Part shown: positions 16,195-31,787 of the stretch, in pieces
Layout of the letters: every line of letters begins with the position of its first letter
How positions within the stretch are numbered: the first letter of the stretch is position 1
DNA from: Schizochytrium sp. TIO01
Taxonomy: Eukaryota > Sar > Bigyra > Thraustochytrida > Thraustochytriidae
Direction of reading: 5' to 3'
Length of the DNA: 31,787 nucleotides
NCBI GenBank assembly: GCA_004764695.1
Contig: SMSO01000021.1
Span: 1-31,787, forward strand
Notes under the pieces: generated by a model
Seen by the model: only the letters and a program-made list of their open reading frames with translations
Database searches by the model: none
What the model was told of the DNA's origin: nothing
Position numbers and translations under genes: made by a program

Positions 16195-19100
16195 TTACTC
16201 CATCACGCTTGACACCTGTGTACCAAGCACAGTGATAACTGAAGGCGGTTTAATCTTCCACCATGCTTTTTTAGTTGCCTTACAATTTTCATCCATAAAA
16301 AATCCCGAGGCAGTTAAGTCAGCTCGAGCTTGGGCCTTGACGTAGGACTTGGTGGGAAATTTTGAAGTATCATAAGCACTGGATGTGGTATAAGCCCTTA
16401 ATCCAGCATACAACTCCTCAGCAATTTCTTGAATAGTTTGGTTGCCAGGCTGTGTCCACAGCAAGTTGGTCGATTCCAAAGGGTCTTCAGCAAGATTGTA
16501 AAGCTCTACACGATAAGCATTCATTTTCGCAGGTGGCTTTCGAACAGTCACCTTTTTAGGCTCCCAGAGAAGCTTATAAACTCCGTTTCGAACTGCGAAA
16601 CGAGGGGAAAAGCCCAGACAATCTCCCATAAAATTGTCACGGAACTCAAATATTAGAGGTTCTGTTTGAGCAACCACAATAGGATCACAAGTACGAAGTA
16701 AGCCACATGACAAGTCACGCCCTTGGATACGGTTTGCATCTGGTAGAGAAGAAAACTCCTCTGCATAGCCTGCCAAGCTTGCCAGAGTGGGGAAGAGGTC
16801 TACCCCGGAAGCGACTTCGCCGAAAGTTGAGGCGGATGGAATATGATTAGCCCATCTCATAAACATGGGCATGCGCACTCCTGCCTCGTACAGTGACCGC
16901 TTTCCGCCTCGAAAAGGCGAAATGCTGCCTGCAAGGGTGAAGTACATTGCGCGTGTCTCGGGACCATTATCAGAAGTATGAATAATGAGAGTTTTATCAT
17001 CCAAACTTAGATCGCCAAGCCGCTCAACAAGACGCCCAACAGCCTCCTCGTGGTCACGTAATAATGTTTGATAGATTTGCTGCGGGACGTATTCCTCAAT
17101 AAAATCATATGGCATGGTCCGGTTTCCGCGATTCGGCCATGGGTTGCTCGTATTACTAGGAAATCCATACTTTGCGGCTTGGTCGTAGGACTCTGCCAAA
17201 ACCAATGGTGCATGCGGGTTCTGCAACCAGACTTGAACGAAAAACTTTCGTTCATCCATGGCACGGTCCTCAAGAAATGAAATCGTTCTGTTTACGAGTA
17301 AGTCTTGAGCATAAGATGTAAAGAAAGGATCCTTGTTGTTCAAGACTGTGCTATGAGACTGAGAAGCTGTCTCAAAAAGGACTTCTCCTTTATCAAGCCG
17401 TGAGCTGCATCCATAAAGCTGATACTCGTCCAAACCGTACAAAGGACCATCGGCATCCAATGAGGCGGGGGCGCTGTATCCAAGATGCCACTTGCCAAAA
17501 TGCGCAGTAACGAAGCCTTGGTCATGAAAAAAGCGAGGCATCAAGGTGAAATCATCCACGTCTTGGCCTTCACCAAGGTACGAGACAACTCCCGAGTTGC
17601 GGTTTGATTTGGAAGTTTTATCGAGTGCATTATGAACTCGAACATCAACATGAGAGGGGTAGCGCCCTGTAACAATTGCAGCACGACTTGGTGAGCATAC
17701 ACAGCCATTTGCGTAATATTGAGTAAAATGAACGCCTTCAGACATGAGCTTGTCAAAAGTTGGCGTACTAGGGCGATATGCAAATTGATCAATTCCTGCG
17801 CGGTTTGAGTTCAAGTTCCCCGAGACATCTCCATAGGCCATATCATCAGCCAGAATGAAAATAATTCCTCTAAGTTCCTCACGGAGCTCTGCTTGGGTCC
17901 AATTCTGAACAGGTGATGACTCTGAGTTTGTCATGCTCGCCGCAGGACCGCCATAGCACCCGACATGAGGAACTGCGGTGGGCTCGCTGGGAAGGCTACT
18001 AATCCAGAACTGGAGTTCGAGCATGAGCTGGTTCTTAATCTTTTCAAGCCGACTCTCATCTGCACTACTCTTAGGAACGCTGTTCCACAAGTTCGTCAAT
18101 TCGAACTCGCCTCGTGACAAATCGTACAATTCATATCGCTCCTCCACACCAGCAGATTCAGACGCTGGCTCATGGAGTAGCTTGAATGTGCCTTTTAGAA
18201 TACTGTATCGCGGAGATTCATGCATGCAGTGACCCGGAGTGCCAAATCTCCATTCCCAGACAAGGGACTGAGTACGAGAAAGCAAGCTGCAATGTGACGA
18301 AAGGCAAGAGGAGGCATCAACACCGGGCAACCCGCTTGGTACGTCAATCTCCGCCCATCCAGCTAGCGTAGGAAGCAAATCGATACCTGTGATGTCAGCG
18401 GTCATCGTCCCAGATCCCATATTGTGACGAAAAAGCCCTTTGAGACCACCATCATAAAGTGAGCGACGGACACCTCGCGCAGAGAGTCGAGGCCTGGAAA
18501 ATGAGTCTGCTTCTTCAGTCTCGCCTCCAGTCGAAGAATACATCAATGTCAAGGATGAACTGCCATCGACTAAAGTCAAAAGGTCTAATAGCTTGTTCAT
18601 TTCATGAATTCTATTCGCCCTGTAAACCTGCTTGGGGCAAGTTTTGTAGCGTGGAGTATAAGTGCCACCGCGCGTAAGATCAGGGCAAACTGACCAGCGC
18701 GTCTCCGAAGGACCCTCGACCCCATTGCTCCAGTTGTCTTCATTGACGTTGTCGATACCATGGCCAAAGGCAGCGTCGAGCCTAGGTAGCATCAAGACAA
18801 CTAAATAATCCTCCTCGTTGTCCACCTGCTCGCTGACAAATGCAATCGCGGCATCAATAACATTACTAAAATGGTCACTAATAAAGCGACTGTCTGTGCT
18901 CTCTGTGATCGCATCGACCGCAAACGGCCATTGCCCAAAATGGCCAACCTTGAAGCCTGCATCACGAAAGGTTGTATAGAGCACAGGGTCGACCTCTGTG
19001 GCTTCATTTTCAGCTGCGTTATCTCGGTGTACACCTATAAGTGCCGGGAAATCCCCTGCAACGACAGCTGCTTCTGAGGGAGCAAGGTCAGGACTTGCAG

Positions 19101-19293
19101 AGCGATAGTTGCTTGCTGCACCCGGTAGGACATTGCCAATCTTCTTCACAAGGTTCGAGGGCAGCGCTTCGAGGTCACCTTGCGTGAATTCCTGCAGCTG
19201 CACGAGACATGCACCTCTGCCCTCCACGCCGCTGTTCACTAAAGCCAAGCTCATCCACGCCAATACGGCGCGCCACATGTTGCCGTGGGCCAT
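16195..19293 (-). CDS. Secreted tandem sulfatase: inactive N-terminal half plus active S1-type C-terminal half
   Basis: A 1032-residue intronless protein starting at an ATG in good context (AAG before, G after), with signal peptide at residues 1-25 (hydrophobic WRAVLAWMSLALVNSG). It contains two homologous formylglycine-sulfatase domains. The C-terminal domain (about 475-1032) has metal ligands D483-D484 in LADDMAYGD, the maturation motif C533-S-P-S-R, HFGKWH (598-603), D775-N776 in TSDNGPE and K798 in RGGKRSLYEAG, so it should hydrolyse a sulfate ester once C533 is oxidised. The N-terminal domain (about 30-450) aligns along its length but reads LAPSE at 70-74 instead of CSPSR, HFGQWP at 118-123, GG at 256-257 for the DN pair, and lacks the LADD segment; it is a pseudosulfatase. 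Closest families are arylsulfatase A/B and GALNS-like S1 enzymes; the substrate cannot be told, though sulfated polysaccharide is likely. N-glycosylation sequons occur. No membrane anchor is seen. Confidence 0.9.
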   Translation of the reverse strand: MAHGNMWRAVLAWMSLALVNSGVEGRGACLVQLQEFTQGDLEALPSNLVKKIGNVLPGAASNYRSASPDLAPSEAAVVAGDFPALIGVHRDNAAENEATEVDPVLYTTFRDAGFKVGHFGQWPFAVDAITESTDSRFISDHFSNVIDAAIAFVSEQVDNEEDYLVVLMLPRLDAAFGHGIDNVNEDNWSNGVEGPSETRWSVCPDLTRGGTYTPRYKTCPKQVYRANRIHEMNKLLDLLTLVDGSSSLTLMYSSTGGETEEADSFSRPRLSARGVRRSLYDGGLKGLFRHNMGSGTMTADITGIDLLPTLAGWAEIDVPSGLPGVDASSCLSSHCSLLSRTQSLVWEWRFGTPGHCMHESPRYSILKGTFKLLHEPASESAGVEERYELYDLSRGEFELTNLWNSVPKSSADESRLEKIKNQLMLELQFWISSLPSEPTAVPHVGCYGGPAASMTNSESSPVQNWTQAELREELRGIIFILADDMAYGDVSGNLNSNRAGIDQFAYRPSTPTFDKLMSEGVHFTQYYANGCVCSPSRAAIVTGRYPSHVDVRVHNALDKTSKSNRNSGVVSYLGEGQDVDDFTLMPRFFHDQGFVTAHFGKWHLGYSAPASLDADGPLYGLDEYQLYGCSSRLDKGEVLFETASQSHSTVLNNKDPFFTSYAQDLLVNRTISFLEDRAMDERKFFVQVWLQNPHAPLVLAESYDQAAKYGFPSNTSNPWPNRGNRTMPYDFIEEYVPQQIYQTLLRDHEEAVGRLVERLGDLSLDDKTLIIHTSDNGPETRAMYFTLAGSISPFRGGKRSLYEAGVRMPMFMRWANHIPSASTFGEVASGVDLFPTLASLAGYAEEFSSLPDANRIQGRDLSCGLLRTCDPIVVAQTEPLIFEFRDNFMGDCLGFSPRFAVRNGVYKLLWEPKKVTVRKPPAKMNAYRVELYNLAEDPLESTNLLWTQPGNQTIQEIAEELYAGLRAYTTSSAYDTSKFPTKSYVKAQARADLTASGFFMDENCKATKKAWWKIKPPSVITVLGTQVSSVME

Positions 19294-24021: not shown

Positions 24022-26103
24022 TTAATGGGGCGGGCCGCGAGGGTTAGCCGACCATCTCTCGCGACCGCGAACAATATCCAGACCCTGGTCTGACTGAGGA
24101 CCAGGGGCAGCGAGTGCAGATTGCGGGTATCCGCTTGATGTGGAGCGGCTCCGAAGGATTGTCTCTGGGCTTGTTGCAGATCCCCTCTGCCGTCTTCGAA
24201 TGAAGAAAACAGTCGCTGCAGCTAAAAGCGTAGCAGGAACGGCAACACCAATGACGATGTAAATTAAAGACATCGAGTAAGTGTTGGACTTTGGTTCGGT
24301 TGTCGGAGCGCTTGTCGGCCACATTGTAATAGTTGCGGCCTTGAAACAGTTTTGGAAAGAACTTGAGCTCGAACATAAACGCGTAGATTGCGTTCCATCA
24401 CACATTTTAATTGCAATGGAAGAGTTTGCATTGTCTGTGCATGTGGATGAGTCAACAGTGTACTCCAATGTCATTACTGCTTTGTCAGCGCTGATGAAAG
24501 AATCATATTTGTCACAGTTTCCGCGATTCACGCAGGCTTCCGCCAAGGCAAAGTCGTAATACGAAACTAAATCATCAGCAATGGTGCGTGCAGAATGCAA
24601 ACCAACCAGTAATCCTTGCTCAGATGCGTATGTCGCCAGATATGAGTTGTAGGCTATCTGGGCATCTTCAGCAGACGCACGAGTGGTAATGCTTGATACA
24701 CCGAGATTTGATCGACATGTGCTATACTCAAGACAGTCCGTATCCATAGGGAAAACACCATGGCATCCAATTTCCGCTGCCGCATCAATTCTTGTAGCCA
24801 TAAGGGCACGAAGACCTGTGTCTGTCATGTTCAACCACAAGTCTCCACGAGGGGTTTCTGCGTTATTCTCGATTAGATAGGCTTCCCAAGCAGCCTTGTT
24901 TGAAAGATAGTCCGGGCGCCATGTTTCTAGTGCACCGGCACTAAATGTGCACAGAACGTGGTGACCTTGACCCACAAGGTAATCCACAAGGTCTGAGTTG
25001 AGCCCATCATTGTCATGAAGACTCACAAACACCGCTTGGGTAATCGATACGTTATCCATAAGAAGGCGCTCGTTAGATGAGCGTAGGACTCTTCGGGAAG
25101 TGATCGCATCTGTTTGCTCCTGAATAATTTCAGACATGTTCGCAAAGCCAAACGCTAGATTCGACCATGATACTGGTGATTCGGGCAGTGCATACTTGTC
25201 CGGGGTTGGCGCAACAGAAGGGCGTACGGTAGGACGAGGAGTTGGTGTTGAAGCTGGAGAGGGTGTGCTGCCGTCATCCCAACAGTTGATCCATTCTCCA
25301 GAAGTACACAAGTTGCCATTGCCACTACAATATTTCGTAGAAAGCGAATAAGTGTCCGCAGTAGTGCAAGCACCACTGATAAGCGTGTACTCCGCGTTTA
25401 ATATTGCTTTGCCGTCTGAAACAAAGGGAGACAACATATCGCACTCGCTGTATCGCTGGCAAGCTTCATTGATGGCAAAGTCGTAATCACTGTGCATTGT
25501 ACTTACAAGGTCAAGGGAGTTTTTGAGAGCAATCGCTAACCCTAAGTTATGCGCTGTGGTAATTTGCCATTGGTTGTATGCAATTTGAGCAGTGAGCGCA
25601 GCACTCTTACTCCCACTGGTGGATTCAATCTTACCATAACAGTCTGAATTGTCGTAGCAATCGGTGTTGTCAGGTTCGATACCATCGCAGCCATATTGCA
25701 CAGCGCGTTCGAAGCGCGGGGTCATAAGATCCGCCAAGGCATCCAGTTGGGTAATGTCGAGCCATTCTTCGTCCCAGTCAGCCATGTCCCCAACCGCAAC
25801 AGCCATCCAGGCAGTTTCATTAGCGATGCAGTCTGCGCGGAAAGGTTCCAGTGTGCCGACTGAAACATAGCAAATGACAGTTTGCCCAGCTGCTTTGTAA
25901 GTGCTAATGAGATCTGTATCGTCAAGGTCGACAATAACGAGGTCTACACCCGTGGCATCATCTTCTCCGCCGCCGCTCCAGCCCCACGCCAAGTTTGCAT
26001 ATGTGATGCCGTTTGGCACACTCACAACGCCAATTGCAGGTTCTGCCGTATACAGACAAAACAACACTGCTGTGAGTAATGCATACATTCTGCTCTGCAT
26101 CAT
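24022..26103 (-). CDS. Membrane-anchored protein with two GH114-type domains (polygalactosaminidase-like)
   Basis: A 693-residue type I surface protein. Signal peptide 1-25 (cleavage after AIG), GH114/TM1410-like domain 1 at about 28-275, Pro/Thr linker 278-302, domain 2 at about 308-590, transmembrane helix about 611-636 followed by RRRQR, and a basic Ser-rich cytoplasmic tail. GH114 enzymes are (beta/alpha)8 barrels that cut alpha-1,4-galactosamine polymers. Domain 1 keeps the family hallmarks: AWGW at 39-42, CYVSVGTLEPFRADC, GIEPDN at 141-146, LKNS, INEAC at 211-215, and a Cys-rich end. Domain 2 keeps CTFSAGALETWRPDY but has GVFPMDTD in place of GIEPDN and AEAC in place of NEAC, so it may be non-catalytic and could bind glycan. 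Both domains share a Cys pattern suited to disulfides and have N-x-S/T sites. ATG-ATG opens the frame. It is tandem with a homologue at 29074 and beyond. The actual substrate is unknown. Confidence 0.87.
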   Translation of the reverse strand: MMQSRMYALLTAVLFCLYTAEPAIGVVSVPNGITYANLAWGWSGGGEDDATGVDLVIVDLDDTDLISTYKAAGQTVICYVSVGTLEPFRADCIANETAWMAVAVGDMADWDEEWLDITQLDALADLMTPRFERAVQYGCDGIEPDNTDCYDNSDCYGKIESTSGSKSAALTAQIAYNQWQITTAHNLGLAIALKNSLDLVSTMHSDYDFAINEACQRYSECDMLSPFVSDGKAILNAEYTLISGACTTADTYSLSTKYCSGNGNLCTSGEWINCWDDGSTPSPASTPTPRPTVRPSVAPTPDKYALPESPVSWSNLAFGFANMSEIIQEQTDAITSRRVLRSSNERLLMDNVSITQAVFVSLHDNDGLNSDLVDYLVGQGHHVLCTFSAGALETWRPDYLSNKAAWEAYLIENNAETPRGDLWLNMTDTGLRALMATRIDAAAEIGCHGVFPMDTDCLEYSTCRSNLGVSSITTRASAEDAQIAYNSYLATYASEQGLLVGLHSARTIADDLVSYYDFALAEACVNRGNCDKYDSFISADKAVMTLEYTVDSSTCTDNANSSIAIKMCDGTQSTRLCSSSSSFQNCFKAATITMWPTSAPTTEPKSNTYSMSLIYIVIGVAVPATLLAAATVFFIRRRQRGSATSPETILRSRSTSSGYPQSALAAPGPQSDQGLDIVRGRERWSANPRGPPH

Positions 26104-26434
26104 CCTCTATCACAAGACCTTGCGTCTGCGAGCAGGCCCCAGCCGTGCCGCACAATAGAGTTTTGGTTGCTGTCTGCACAGCTCTTTGGATTCGCAGTGC
26201 GCGCTCTTGTTAAATCCTCTTTTGTAGTCCTTGTAATATTTTGTATTGAAAGAGAAAAACGGAATCACACCTTAGCGCTGTAAGACACCCAGAACTAAGA
26301 ACCAAGACTATGCCTCCAGCTGGCCCAGAGCCTTAAAACCGTGTCGCCGTCTCCACAGGGCTCCAAGAGCATCTCCGAGTTCAAGTATTGCATTTCCCTT
26401 CGTACAGCCACGCTCGCTCCCACGCACACACGCA

Positions 26435-26453
26435 CAGTCAGTCAGTCAGTCAG
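26435..26453. repeat. (CAGT)n microsatellite
   Basis: Four perfect CAGT units plus CAG, 330 bp upstream of the first GH114 start. Confidence 0.85.
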
Positions 26454-26871
26454 CCTAGCCAGCGCTAAGAAGCATGAATTCTTGTCCTCGCAATGACCAC
26501 TGTCCAATTGTATAGTTACTTTAATACACAGGGGATGAGAGCACGTGCAAATTGTGTAAGCAAGGGAGCACTCCTGTGGTTCCGAAAGTGGGACGCCAGT
26601 CACTCGTCTCCACTGCAGACCCGCTGTCTCTGCGGAGGAGGCCTTTGGTGTCGGCCTCGTCGGAGCTGCTCGAATGCGCTGCTGATGCTGCAGGTGTTGT
26701 GCACGTGAGCGGTAATGCACTCTTAGAGAAGAACTTCTCCCAGCAAAGAGCAGCAAGTCCAAAGGGGCTTTCTGGAGTTGTGCCGACCGCTCAGCGTTGT
26801 CTTGATCTTGTTTCTAGCCTGAGAATCAGCAGGCAGGTAGGTATAGGCACCTAGGAGCAGAGAAGGGAGTG

Positions 26872-26900
26872 AGTAAGTAAGTAAGCAAGCAAGCAAGCAG
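26872..26900. repeat. (GTAA)n-(GCAA)n compound microsatellite
   Basis: Three GTAA-type units pass into four GCAA-type units by a single-base change of the unit. Confidence 0.85.
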
Positions 26901-27200
26901 GTCCTGCCTATATGCTGATGTGGTTTGTGCTTTACTCTATGCTGTCTATGGACTTGAGGCTGTTTTAAGAAATCAGGAGCCTAGTCCAGTCGTATCTAGC
27001 CGCTGGAAATGCGAACCAACGAGCTTTCGGTCACCCTCCTTGGCAAATTGGGTGTAGCACCAGCGTACGGTACGAAGCGCACGATCTTAAAGGTTGGTAT
27101 TTGGAATGCATGTAGCAGCTTTCAAAGTTATCAGCATTACTATTAAATTGAGCCAGGACGAGTGTTTTTTTAATTTTTTTATAAACCCTTTCGTAGAATG

Positions 27201-27220
27201 TGCATGCATGCATGCATGCA
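27201..27220. repeat. (TGCA)5 perfect palindromic repeat
   Basis: Five TGCA units make a 20-bp self-complementary, strictly alternating purine-pyrimidine tract. It could extrude a small cruciform or take Z-like form, and contains overlapping CATGCA motifs. Confidence 0.85.
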
Positions 27221-27378
27221 GAATATCATCGATGGGACATCCGACCGACCACCCATGCTCATGACTTCATGAACTTGAACGAGCGGGGAGATATCTGGAT
27301 ATAAGCTAATGCTCAAGCTTTTCGGCCTGTGTTCAATCACATAGACTACCACCGACAGCTTCGCACCACAGTTTTTTT

Positions 27379-27762
27379 CTAGCAAACAAGATTAGAAGAG
27401 GAAGATTGCCAGCGAGGGAGCTGGAGCTTCACTGCAAACAGTTTAGTACTTAGTAGCAGCAGATACTTGGTGCGCTGCTTCTGCACAATTAAGTCTTGAA
27501 GAATAAATTTTTGCTTATCATTTACTCCCTCGCTCAAGCTTCGAGAGACAGCGCCTATAACATTCAGTTTGTGCATGCGCTGGGTGCAAAGTACATTTCT
27601 ACACCCACGGCAGAAAACCAAGCCATGACTGTGGCCATCTTCTGAGGAAGATAGTAAGTAGCGCCAGTATTTGTGCTTGCTTGCAAGAGTAGCAGTAACT
27701 CGGAAAGTCGTCAGAGCCGCAGAGCATGACAATGAATTGCCGGACCATCTGCCACCGCGCAT
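27379..27762 (-). CDS. Doubtful hypothetical protein
   Basis: The reverse strand is open for 182 codons (27379-27924) but the first ATG is at 27762, giving 127 residues. This is the longest clean frame outside the assigned genes on the right side. It carries a cysteine knot-like string FCRGCRNVLC in mid-protein, which could be half of a zinc-binding site, and a Leu/Lys-rich C-terminal helix. I recognise no family. It has the same orientation as the two GH114 genes around it. Codon use is mixed rather than GC3-biased, and chance openness is quite possible. Confidence 0.2.
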   Translation of the reverse strand: MRGGRWSGNSLSCSAALTTFRVTATLASKHKYWRYLLSSSEDGHSHGLVFCRGCRNVLCTQRMHKLNVIGAVSRSLSEGVNDKQKFILQDLIVQKQRTKYLLLLSTKLFAVKLQLPRWQSSSSNLVC

Positions 27763-29073
27763 GTGTCGCGCTACCGAATCAGCGTGCTTGCTCACCACTG
27801 GAGCTTCCAAACAACCCAAGAAACAGTGTGTGCAGTAGCAATTTTGTAGTAGACACGACAATTGACGATTATGATGCTTGCAATTACTGTGAATCTTCAA
27901 GTTGAGTAGTATTGAAACGTGCAATGCGGATGCCCACGATGCTCATCATGAGCACGGCGGTGTAACAGTAGACCATCTTGACGATGTTTTGATATCAATG
28001 ACCTTCATTGCGGCTTTCCTTCTTTTCTCTAAATGGGATTGTTGGTAGAAACAGGTCGAGGTAGGAGTAGGTAGGTATAACCTATGCTACTATATACTTT
28101 TACCTCAGCTGGCTGCACACCAGGTGCACGTGTACACCCGCCATCACTCCTACTCCTACTACTTTGAGGCAAGCTCTCATGGTGATGACAGCAAAATTTT
28201 GATGATCACTGAAGTTTGAAAACTCAATGTTGATGATGATAACCAAATTCCTTTTTGATCATGAGCAGTAGATCCCTCGTAGAAAAGTGTGCAATACTTC
28301 TAAGGTCTACTGGAAACCTCTAGAATATTATTTTTGTATTTAGCGGAAGAGAATGAGGAAAACGAAGTGATGCCTGTTCTTCGAGATATCCTGAAATTGG
28401 TGGCAGCTAGATAATATCTCACTCGCTCAGATTAAAATAGATTCTCACGAGGGAGGGTGAAAATTTCGGAAATGGCTCGCTTTCTAAATAGTGTTTTATG
28501 GCTTATAAGGGAGCGTGAATCAATCTCTTGGTGAGAGATGGACTTGTGTCAAAAACCTGATTTCCAAAAAACGATGAGCGAGGGATTTAAACTATCCACC
28601 CTTTAATAGTTTTAAAAGTACTGCGTGCAGTGTATATGCAGCTGCCCTAGGCTTGCGATATTATTCGGGGGAGTAGGCCCTATCAAGAGATTTGGCGGAC
28701 ACACTCTTTCATCGAAGAATAAATAATTTTTTTGGCAGATCTAATAATCTTGTCTCGCAAAAATCGCAACACTTTGGGTAGTAGGTATAATAAAGTAGGT
28801 AGGTACTACTATTCTCCGGTTAGATATTAACTGGGACAGTTTCGAACCGAAGCTACTAGGAGCTCTATTGAAATTGAGGATTTCATCTCTATGTGCTACG
28901 AGTAGAATTCAGCTTTTCATTGTTAGCTAGGTATTGGATCAACGAGCCGCGGCCAACCTGCATAGTAATTATTTTTTAAATTTCTAAAAGTAAGAAGAAG
29001 AAAACTACGGTATAAAGAAAGAAAAATTACATTTTAAGAATCAGTCTATGCAATACAAGACAAATGCCGCTAA

Positions 29074-31787
29074 CTAGTCACGAAAATTCTCGTGACGAGA
29101 GTTATGCGAAAAAACGGTGACTGTTCCATCTACTGAAGAATTTCTACGGCGTCTTGACGATCGCCGGCGACGGTAACTCAGATAAATTAAGATCAGCACG
29201 CACCCTACAGTGGCACCAATTGCACCCGTTACAACTGGGGAAAGTTTAAGTGAATGGCTGTCGCTCTCCTCTTCCACAGCATCTGAGCTAGACTCATTAG
29301 TACCACGAGTTCCTACCGAGCCAAAACAATTCACTTGGGTCGTGTTGTTCGAGCACTCCTGTGAGCTGGCATCTCCACTACACATTTTTGTAGATACGCC
29401 CCATTGCTCAGAGGCATCACAGAGAGAAGTGGTCACACTATATTCACGGTTGAACACAGGCTTGCTGGTGTTCAAAAATTTCATGTATGCAGCACACTCA
29501 CCGCGCGAAATGCATCCCTCAGCCATTGCAAAATCATACTGTGATACCATAAGATCAGCGAGCTTTGAGTTTGCATGCAAACCGATCTTGAGACTTTGGG
29601 AAGAGGCCATAGAAGCAAGCCAATCATTATACGCATACTGTGCAATATCTGCTTCTTCGCGCGAGAAACCAAAGGCACGACGGCATGAAGCATAACTATT
29701 GCAATTTACGTCTAAGGGAAGAATACCTGAGCAACCAATATTTGCTGCGGAGACGATCCGCTTACCCATCAAAATGCGAAGATCAATGGAGCTGATGTTA
29801 AGCCAGTCCCGCGTGTTGGTGAACGCTGTTAGGTTGTTCCATAAAGTGGCATTCTCCTCGTAGTCTGGTCTCCAAGTTTCAAGAACGCCTGCACTGAATG
29901 TGCACATCACAGCTCGAGTGTTGCTGTACAGACTCTGTACAAGCTTAGAGTTCAGTTGGCCATCTTGAGTGTGCAGGTCAACCAAGACCACCTCTGTTCC
30001 GGTTACATTATCCAAGTCTGCAATACTTGTATCACCAGTGACCGCTTCGATGGTGTCCAGTGCGCGCAAATGTGGAGAATGAGAATACCGTGTGTCGACC
30101 AAACGACGCAGGGAATTGGTTGTATTCGAAGCACTTTCACTTGTTGTTGCATTAGCCGCAGTTGTAGTGTTGGTCTCACTGACAGTAGTGGGAGAATCAG
30201 TAGAAGAAGCTGTCGAGGTATCGGCAGTATCGATAGGAATACCCACCACGAGGTTCGCCCAGGGAACAAGGTCGCGTGCTTCATAGTTTATGGGGGGTGC
30301 CACAAGCTCGCCCGCTTGCAATGAGTTGAAGCAATTGTGCCAGGTTCCGTCCTGGCACATAAAGTTCACAGTGTTGTTGCCACCATCACAGAATTTAAGT
30401 TGGATATGCAAACTCTGAGCTTCAGTGCACAGGCTTGTCTGGTTATCCAGATTGTAATGATGAACCCAAATTGATTTGTTGCGTGTATAAAACGGGTCAT
30501 ATAAGCTACACTCGTCATAAGAAAGGCAGTTTGAATTGATTGCCCAGTCAAAGTCATCAGCAAGATACTGGACAAGCCCTGGCGCATTTTGTAAGGCTAT
30601 CAACATGCCACGCTCGTGTGCTGCGCTGGCAAGCCAACGATTGAAAACAAGTTGATCTTGAAGAGCTTGCGTGGCGTTTGGCAGAAAAGCTGTGCAAGTA
30701 TCCTGCAAAGCACAGTCCATGAAATCTGGCGCAATTGCACTGCAGTTATGCGCAACTGCCCGATCCAATCTTGGAATCAAGAGCTCTTGCATAGCTGTCA
30801 AGTTGCTAATATTCAGCCAGGCGTTTGATGTTTCCAAGGTAGCATTGAGTGTTGCTGCTTGCCAGGCCGCAGGGTCTGCAAGAACATCCTCACGGTACAA
30901 TTCACGCGTACCTGCACTGAAATAGCAGACAACCAGCTTATGTTCTTCATCCCACATGTTGATTTGCTCAGAACTAGTAGTATCCAGGTCTACCATCACA
31001 GCATCCATACCTGTAGCGTTATCTTTTCCTCCATCTGCCCAGCCCCACGCCATATTTGCAAAGGTGGTATTTGGATTGACTGCCCGCATGCCAGTAGGAA
31101 TTGACATAACAAGGCTTCCAGATGGGTCAATAGCATCAGTAGTCACCATGATTGTTGGGTATGGTGTGGGTGAAGATGTTGTAGGGACTATGACTAAGGT
31201 CGGATAAGTCGTAGGCTGTAGTGTTGGTTTCTTTGTTGTCGGCTGCAGCGTTGGTTGAAGAGTGGGCTGCAGCGTTGGTTGAGGAGTGGGCTGCAGCGTC
31301 GGTTGAGGAGTGGGCTGCAGCGTCGGTTGAGGAGTGGGCTGCAGCGTCGGTTGAGGAGTGGGCTGCAGCGTCGGTTGAGGAGTGGGCTGCAGCGTCGGTT
31401 GAGGAGTGGGCTGCAGCGTCGGTTGAGGAATGGGCTGCAGCGTCGGTTGAGGAGTGGTCTGCAACGTCGGTTGAGGAGTGGGCTGGCAATGTAGGTTGAG
31501 GGAGTGGGCTCTAAAGTAGGGGGCGATGTGGGACTGGGTGTGGTGCAGTCTGACCAAGTGCCGTTTACGCACATGCCATCAGCCTCCAGCGCACATTTTG
31601 GAGACATACTGTGTGCTGATGCCCTTGAGCAAGTGTTGCTCTCGAGTTGATACTCAACGTTGAAGACTGCCTTGTTGCTTCCGTAAAATAAACCATTCTT
31701 CCACACTCACTTTCTGAAAGGCATTGTTCGTTAACTGCGAAATCATAACTGCTGGCCATACTTGTGACGAGCTCCACGAGTTTTTCA
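29074..31787 (-). CDS. Multi-domain GH114-type surface protein, 5'-partial, with apparent frameshifts
   Basis: A homologue of the gene at 24022-26103 that runs off the window at its 5' end. From the N-terminal side: the end of one GH114 domain (31787 to about 31550, containing SSYDFAVNEQC), a Pro/Thr/Gln repeat linker (about 31230-31530), a second domain (about 31100-30330), a third (about 30270-29320), a transmembrane helix (about 29240-29177, AIGATVGCVLILIYLSY) and a basic tail RRRRSSRRRR. The third domain has a long Ser/Thr/Asn-rich insert (about 30080-30230) like a mucin loop. The second domain reads AIAPDFMD and AINSNC, and the third GILPLDVN and MAEGC, where an intact copy has GIEPDN and NEAC; both are probably non-catalytic. 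The 832-codon frame opens with GTG at 31572, not a true start: homology continues upstream through three single-base indels near 31485, 31501 and 31703. These are sequencing errors or pseudogene lesions. Confidence 0.8.
31242..31510. repeat. 24-bp coding minisatellite (PTPQPTLQ)n
   Basis: About ten to eleven tandem 24-bp units on the reverse strand encode an octapeptide PTPQPTLQ linker between the first and second GH114 domains. Inner units are nearly identical; edge units diverge (PIPQ, TTPQ, PTLQ). Because 24 is a multiple of three, copy-number change keeps the frame. The outermost unit (31480-31505) has two extra bases, each in a short C run on the coding strand. Confidence 0.93.

Follow-up and report, generated by a model that had tools for sequence, protein, structure and literature searches.

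We analysed a 31,787-nucleotide contig of the thraustochytrid Schizochytrium sp. TIO01 (GenBank assembly GCA_004764695.1, contig SMSO01000021.1; hereafter the window) and found that two of its genes, A and B, encode proteins in which a canonical glycoside hydrolase family 114 (GH114) domain leads and one or two further GH114 domains with changed catalytic residues follow, ahead of a C-terminal transmembrane anchor. This arrangement had been proposed for both genes in a first-pass annotation made from the letters alone, and it recurs in a paralogue, gene C, on contig C34. The architecture, the change of catalytic residues, a retained fold (for A2) and selection against change are supported by sequence comparison and predicted models. 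We consider that a surface GH114 enzyme carrying pseudoenzyme copies explains the architecture, with a probability of roughly 0.6. That the trailing domains are catalytically dead is probable; that they bind glycan is a conjecture to which we give somewhat less than an even chance.

Searched with the Pfam GH114 profile (PF03537, curated cut-off 27 bits), the two long open reading frames of the window each contained two matching stretches, and the short overlapping frame at 31194-31706 contained none. At 107.8-168.3 bits the four domains stand so far over the cut-off that the matches are not due to chance. The features of the two genes are as follows.

24022..26103, minus strand: gene A, 693 aa (signal-peptide-like start, A1, Pro/Thr linker, A2, transmembrane helix, basic tail)
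26023..26103, minus strand: N-terminal hydrophobic, signal-peptide-like segment of gene A (aa 1-27), by hydropathy
25273..26019, minus strand: A1, canonical GH114 domain (aa 29-277)
25186..25272, minus strand: Pro/Thr-rich linker of gene A (aa 278-306), low model confidence
24334..25185, minus strand: A2, changed GH114 domain (aa 307-590)
24202..24258, minus strand: transmembrane segment of gene A (aa 616-634; hydropathy 2.35, helix 610-640 in the model), then a basic tail
29074..31787, minus strand: gene B, cut by the contig end, with frames broken near it
31721..31735, minus strand: VNEQC, motif with the acid/base residue of B1, the leading domain, which is canonical
31241..31510, minus strand: 24-bp tandem array of 11.2 copies coding a TLQPTPQP stalk between B1 and B2 (Pfam PT repeat match)
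30316..31077, minus strand: B2, changed GH114 domain
29314..30288, minus strand: B3, changed GH114 domain, sister of A2
29179..29235, minus strand: transmembrane segment of gene B (hydropathy 2.31), then an Arg-rich tail

All motifs quoted in the first-pass annotation were recovered at their positions, in gene A as GIEPDN (within aa 141-149), INEAC (211-215), VFPMDTD (within 449-457) and AEAC (within 520-524), and in gene B as IAPDFMD (30712-30735), INSNC (30526-30540), ILPLDVN (29701-29724) and AEGC (29512-29526). The window (contig C20 of an assembly of 64.06 Mb in 37 contigs) aligns over its full length to C4:86833-118551 as two blocks, 97.8 and 98.1% identical, that are separated by a 28-base gap, and is the second haplotype, or allele, of that region. 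Genes A and B are thus one locus and not extra paralogues, and since C4 already represents this entire contig (~98% identity), a gene count made on the assembly will contain allelic duplicates. On the C4 allele gene B is open over its full length with three GH114 domains, so the window's N-terminal 'stub', whose VNEQC had been taken as canonical, represents the final part of a first domain that is canonical; the complete B1 lies at L015:8299-9054.

Across the genome the profile search gave at least 14 GH114 matches: the four window domains (A1, A2, B2, B3), five on C4, namely the counterparts of these four and B1, which sits past the window's cut end, and five elsewhere. With alleles counted once, these amount to six genes and ten domains.

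Gene A: domains A1 and A2
Gene B: domains B1, B2 and B3; 1097 aa on C4
Gene C: domains C1 and C2; contig C34, adjoining gene D
Gene D: a single GH114 domain, D1; contig C34
Gene E: a single GH114 domain, E1
Gene F: a single GH114 domain, F1, and a von Willebrand A domain

All six leading domains (A1, B1, C1, D1, E1 and F1) scored above the Pfam cut-off, at 161.1 to 190.1 bits, as did the trailing domains A2 (125.3), B2 (129.9), B3 (107.8) and C2 (81.6). Trailing domains may accordingly be regarded as GH114 members by descent and, from the residues described below, as putative non-enzymes. By hydropathy, genes A, B and C have a hydrophobic segment at the N-terminus and a C-terminal transmembrane segment, with the trailing domains placed after the leading domain and ahead of the membrane segment. 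Gene E has a hydrophobic stretch at its end, and no hydrophobic or transmembrane segment was found in genes D and F at the hydropathy threshold used. Gene D (L017:6463-8838, plus strand), directly beside two-domain gene C in a layout that recalls the side-by-side genes A and B, encodes a GH114 protein whose Pro/Thr-rich repeat stalk runs to ~300 residues. At L019:3205-5202 (minus strand) GH114 is fused to the von Willebrand A domain (PF00092, E 2.6e-7), an adhesion-like partner for a catalytic fold.

To compare active sites, the columns of the Aspergillus fumigatus enzyme Ega3 were placed on each domain through a phmmer alignment to 6ojb, using one offset and the residue numbers of PMC12054363. 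That paper names Asp189 as the nucleophile and Glu247 as the acid/base of Ega3, both verified by experiment, and puts Trp154 at the tip of a loop that moves onto the ligand (PMC12054363). Lid Trp, nucleophile Asp and acid/base Glu were all present in 6/6 leading domains; in A1 they correspond to W110, D145 and E213. None of the four trailing domains had both catalytic residues (Asp in 1/4, Glu in 2/4), and the lid Trp was found in 0/4, a column made uncertain by the varying length of the lid loop; no trailing domain had a second Trp ahead of the conserved W(L)(N/D) motif. In the order lid, nucleophile and acid/base, the trailing domains read P/M/E in A2, gap/D/S in B2, F/L/E in B3 and S/E/V in C2. 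A2 thus has Met (M453) in the D189 column followed by Asp in the N190 column and keeps E247 as E522; B2 keeps the nucleophile Asp (PDF) with Phe in the N190 column and has lost Glu to Ser; B3 has Leu for the nucleophile (PLD), keeps Glu and has Phe in place of the lid Trp. Among 81 prokaryotic GH114 open reading frames at 80 loci, Asp and Glu were each present in 81 and the lid column held Trp in 74 and Phe in 7; these were the best 80 of 454 loci for a canonical query, found with patterns that included the DN motif, and the counts therefore lean canonical.

The comparison was widened to 34 positions, these three residues among them, that all six leading domains share and that are conserved in at least 90% of 82 others. 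Five cysteines, S128, G130, D138, R174, A178 and F261 were kept in all four trailing domains, and W154, E157, E187, N190 and K228 in none. Nine cysteines were invariant among the leading domains, and all nine remained so when the trailing domains were added. The three published residues were kept in 3/12 cells against 83/124 at the other 31 positions (Fisher p 0.009, for cells that are non-independent). Such retention of cysteines and core with change in the cleft, together with the position next to the membrane, would also suit a role without glycan binding, in which the trailing domains serve as folded spacers or as chaperone-like partners, raising the leading enzyme or stabilising it. We think this rather unlikely, as a Pro/Thr stalk of the kind seen in gene D would be the cheaper spacer, and the strong acidity of the trailing domains (net charge -14 to -26), which the leading domains share (-11 to -29), would suit a cationic polymer.

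AlphaFold models covered gene A, and residue placement was read from their secondary structure strings with strand numbers of our own. In these models both the leading and the trailing domain are predicted to form the GH114 barrel, and the changed residues lie at the C-terminal ends of the strands numbered beta4 and beta6, the residue of the 189 column being the last of its strand in both domains (D145 and M453). The annotation's proposal that the changes fall on catalytic positions is consistent with the alignment to Ega3, and its own counter-case, that they would lie outside the cleft, does not appear to apply to A2. The best sequence and fold matches of the leading domains were Ega3 (6oj1/6ojb) and the Fusarium solani enzyme FsGH114 (9ep6); PelA and GH191 structures matched the fold at lower Z, and no closer relation to PelA (GH166) than to Ega3 was seen.

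Several observations weigh against an enzyme with pseudoenzyme copies, and some suggest altered instead of absent catalysis in the trailing domains, a possibility in which the acid would be shifted by one residue (xD for DN) to give a glycosidase of other specificity, perhaps for a galactose-rich protist wall polymer. Asp stands one residue past the nucleophile position, in the N190 column, in A2, B3 and C2, the acid/base Glu is retained in A2 and B3, and these two form a supported clade that shares the change. With FsGH114 as the query, the best stretch of gene A was the changed A2 and not A1 (E 3.9e-14). FsGH114 carries tyrosines at the loop tip in place of the lid Trp (PMC12054363); given these, the Phe in B3 and the Phe in 7/81 prokaryotic frames, the lid aromatic varies among working relatives and a missing lid Trp is by itself weak evidence. 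We nevertheless judge this alternative improbable, since the residue of the 189 column is the last in its strand and its neighbour should point elsewhere, E187, N190 and K228 are changed in all four trailing domains, and B2 lacks the acid/base Glu, as does C2, which has Val there. Other points concern the pseudoenzyme reading itself. Genes D, E and F (3/6) have no trailing domain, so the domain pair is not required for GH114 function in this genome; loss of K228 and the lid may weaken polymer binding, and dead domains may bind nothing or something else. In the gene A model the relative placement of the two domains is undefined (predicted template modelling score, pTM, 0.42), and the AlphaFold alignments contained canonical relatives, which would aid the fold of any member.

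In phylogenetic analysis, A2 and B3 were sisters (support 99/94), as were A1 and B1 (96/91; Shimodaira-Hasegawa-like approximate likelihood ratio test, SH-aLRT, 83-87 in three reduced trees). The two sister pairs are most simply explained if a canonical domain in front and a changed one behind it were already present in the ancestor of A and B. C2 grouped with A2 and B3 (98/90) on a very long branch. Placement of B2 was unstable: the best tree set it apart from A2, B3 and C2, it joined A2 and B3 when C2 was omitted (SH-aLRT 81), and a constraint placing all four trailing domains in one clade was not rejected (approximately unbiased, AU, test, p 0.299).

Between haplotypes, A2, B2 and B3 together carried 10 changes at 579 synonymous sites and 4 at 2010 nonsynonymous sites (binomial p 1.3e-4), and A1 carried 3 and 0, a pattern of selection against change. 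The broken frames of gene B in the window might be read as decaying pseudogene material, of the trailing domains or of the whole gene. This is very improbable. The C4 allele is open over 1097 aa, allelic changes are mostly synonymous and the pairing of A2 with B3 is old; moreover, the six single-base length differences between the alleles of gene B are all confined to the outermost ~305 bp of the contig, a pattern to be expected at the edge of an assembly. The broken frames look like such an edge and not like gene decay, and decay of gene B was rejected. Two other length differences, of 24 bases each, equal one repeat unit, and the stalk between B1 and B2 therefore seems length-variable within one genome.

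The favoured reading, an enzyme with pseudoenzyme copies on one chain, would work as follows. Genes A, B and C would encode type I surface glycoproteins whose membrane-distal GH114 domain is predicted to be an Ega3-type retaining endo-alpha-1,4-galactosaminidase. Its substrates would be cationic polymers rich in galactosamine that come from bacteria, from prey or from the coat of the cell itself. Beyond a presumably flexible Pro/Thr stalk, the membrane-proximal domain or domains would be pseudoenzymes, with barrel and disulfide cysteines kept, the catalytic cluster broken and the lid Trp gone. Their most likely role would be to hold or present polymer during cutting by the leading domain, or to serve as a folded spacer, and products would thereby be kept at the surface of an osmotroph. 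The host's group is described as feeding through an ectoplasmic net (PMC11642839; PMC10101102), and GH114 is named among the gene families common to convergent osmotrophs and is known from osmotroph gene clusters (PMC13345962); this suits surface-held digestion. As the thraustochytrid wall contains a sulfated polysaccharide with galactose and xylose (PMC11642839), a substrate in the own wall is also possible. A bolder version, which we regard as doubtful, would make the membrane-proximal domains glycan receptors, with which a marine osmotroph senses or grips galactosamine-rich biofilm polymer; these dead copies would share the fold and the chain of the cutter, and the chain would have a cytoplasmic tail.

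Enzymes with catalytically changed companions are known from other families. Lactase-phlorizin hydrolase is a GH1 protein in which some of the tandem domains are catalytically changed, and Klotho is a GH1 pseudoenzyme that is not known to have an active domain in the same chain. Alpha- and beta-Klotho are described as membrane proteins of glycosidase-like domains and co-receptors that bind FGF proteins; their family differs from GH114. Lactase-phlorizin hydrolase is a membrane enzyme whose precursor has four tandem domains, of which III and IV are active and I and II are removed (PMC7658089), whereas in the proteins described here the predicted active domain lies farthest from the membrane. 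For GH114 we found no description of such a design: titles and abstract openings yielded no tandem or degenerate GH114 protein, though supplements and further papers may hold one. GH114 itself has been reported from thraustochytrid secretomes (PMC6050695) and brown algae (PMC11468063).

The leading domains share nucleophile and acid/base with Ega3 and FsGH114, and the lid Trp with Ega3; the deposited chains of both enzymes consist of one GH114 domain of 277-296 residues. The view in the first-pass annotation of GH114 as usually a lone secreted or periplasmic domain, with Ega3 and PelA as examples, was not supported as worded: the PelA hydrolase belongs to GH166 (PMC12054363), and fungal GH114 enzymes are described as carrying a transmembrane segment (PMC11356417). 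The latter is N-terminal, at aa 39-62 in the Neurospora enzyme (PMC11356417), whereas in A, B and C the segment is C-terminal and extra, catalytically changed GH114 domains are present. The PelA hydrolase and the GH191 enzymes TmGH191 and Env-GH191 share the barrel and an overlapping acid pair and belong to other CAZy families (PMC12054363). A second GH114 domain in one frame was found in none of the 81 prokaryotic frames (80 loci, the best of 454 for a canonical query). Of 299 genomes belonging to one phylum, 33 gave a total of 44 matches, and no two of these shared a frame, judged from coordinates and frame lengths; eukaryotic coverage of this comparison was the window's own genome. Two scans of viral contigs gave no viral relatives. 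As for a galactosaminogalactan pathway in the host, Spherulin4/GH135 had no match, an uninformative result because the control also matched nowhere.

GH114 enzymes are under study for dissolving the biofilm polymers of fungi and bacteria, and their binding mode has been termed elusive (PMC12054363). With a natural pair of enzyme and putative pseudoenzyme, the contribution of the cleft residues to catalysis and to binding could be examined directly, and the changed domains are candidates for a non-cutting probe of galactosamine-rich polymers.

Beside the GH114 genes, a 1032-aa sulfatase (16195-19293, minus strand) has a similar design of enzyme and dead twin. Its second half has a CSPSRAA site and a Pfam Sulfatase match; the first half is homologous to it (23% identity, E 1e-21), gave no Pfam match over the cut-off and reads LAPSEAA at the site, where both the formylglycine Cys and the Arg are lost. 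In this protein the altered half is the leading one, unlike in the GH114 genes. Were the trailing GH114 domains indeed receptors, this neighbour would make enzyme plus dead twin a repeated surface design.

Elsewhere in the genome, L023:1282-3291 (plus strand; C31:378540) encodes a glycosyltransferase with DUF3492 (matching only positions 160-257 of 268) and GT4, a combination that we take to resemble PelF/Gtb3-type polymer synthases and treat as a lead only; the host may itself make a related polymer. An array of ten tandem acyl-carrier domains (ACPs) occupies C4:611495-614707, inside an open frame of 2172 codons; the frame that contains a polyketide dehydratase match has the same length. A polyunsaturated fatty acid (PUFA) synthase with a tandem ACP array is a hallmark of thraustochytrids, and this array and the genome size of 64.06 Mb agree with a thraustochytrid host. 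The genomes of three docosahexaenoic acid (DHA)-producing thraustochytrids measure 58.10-65.69 Mb (PMC6050695).
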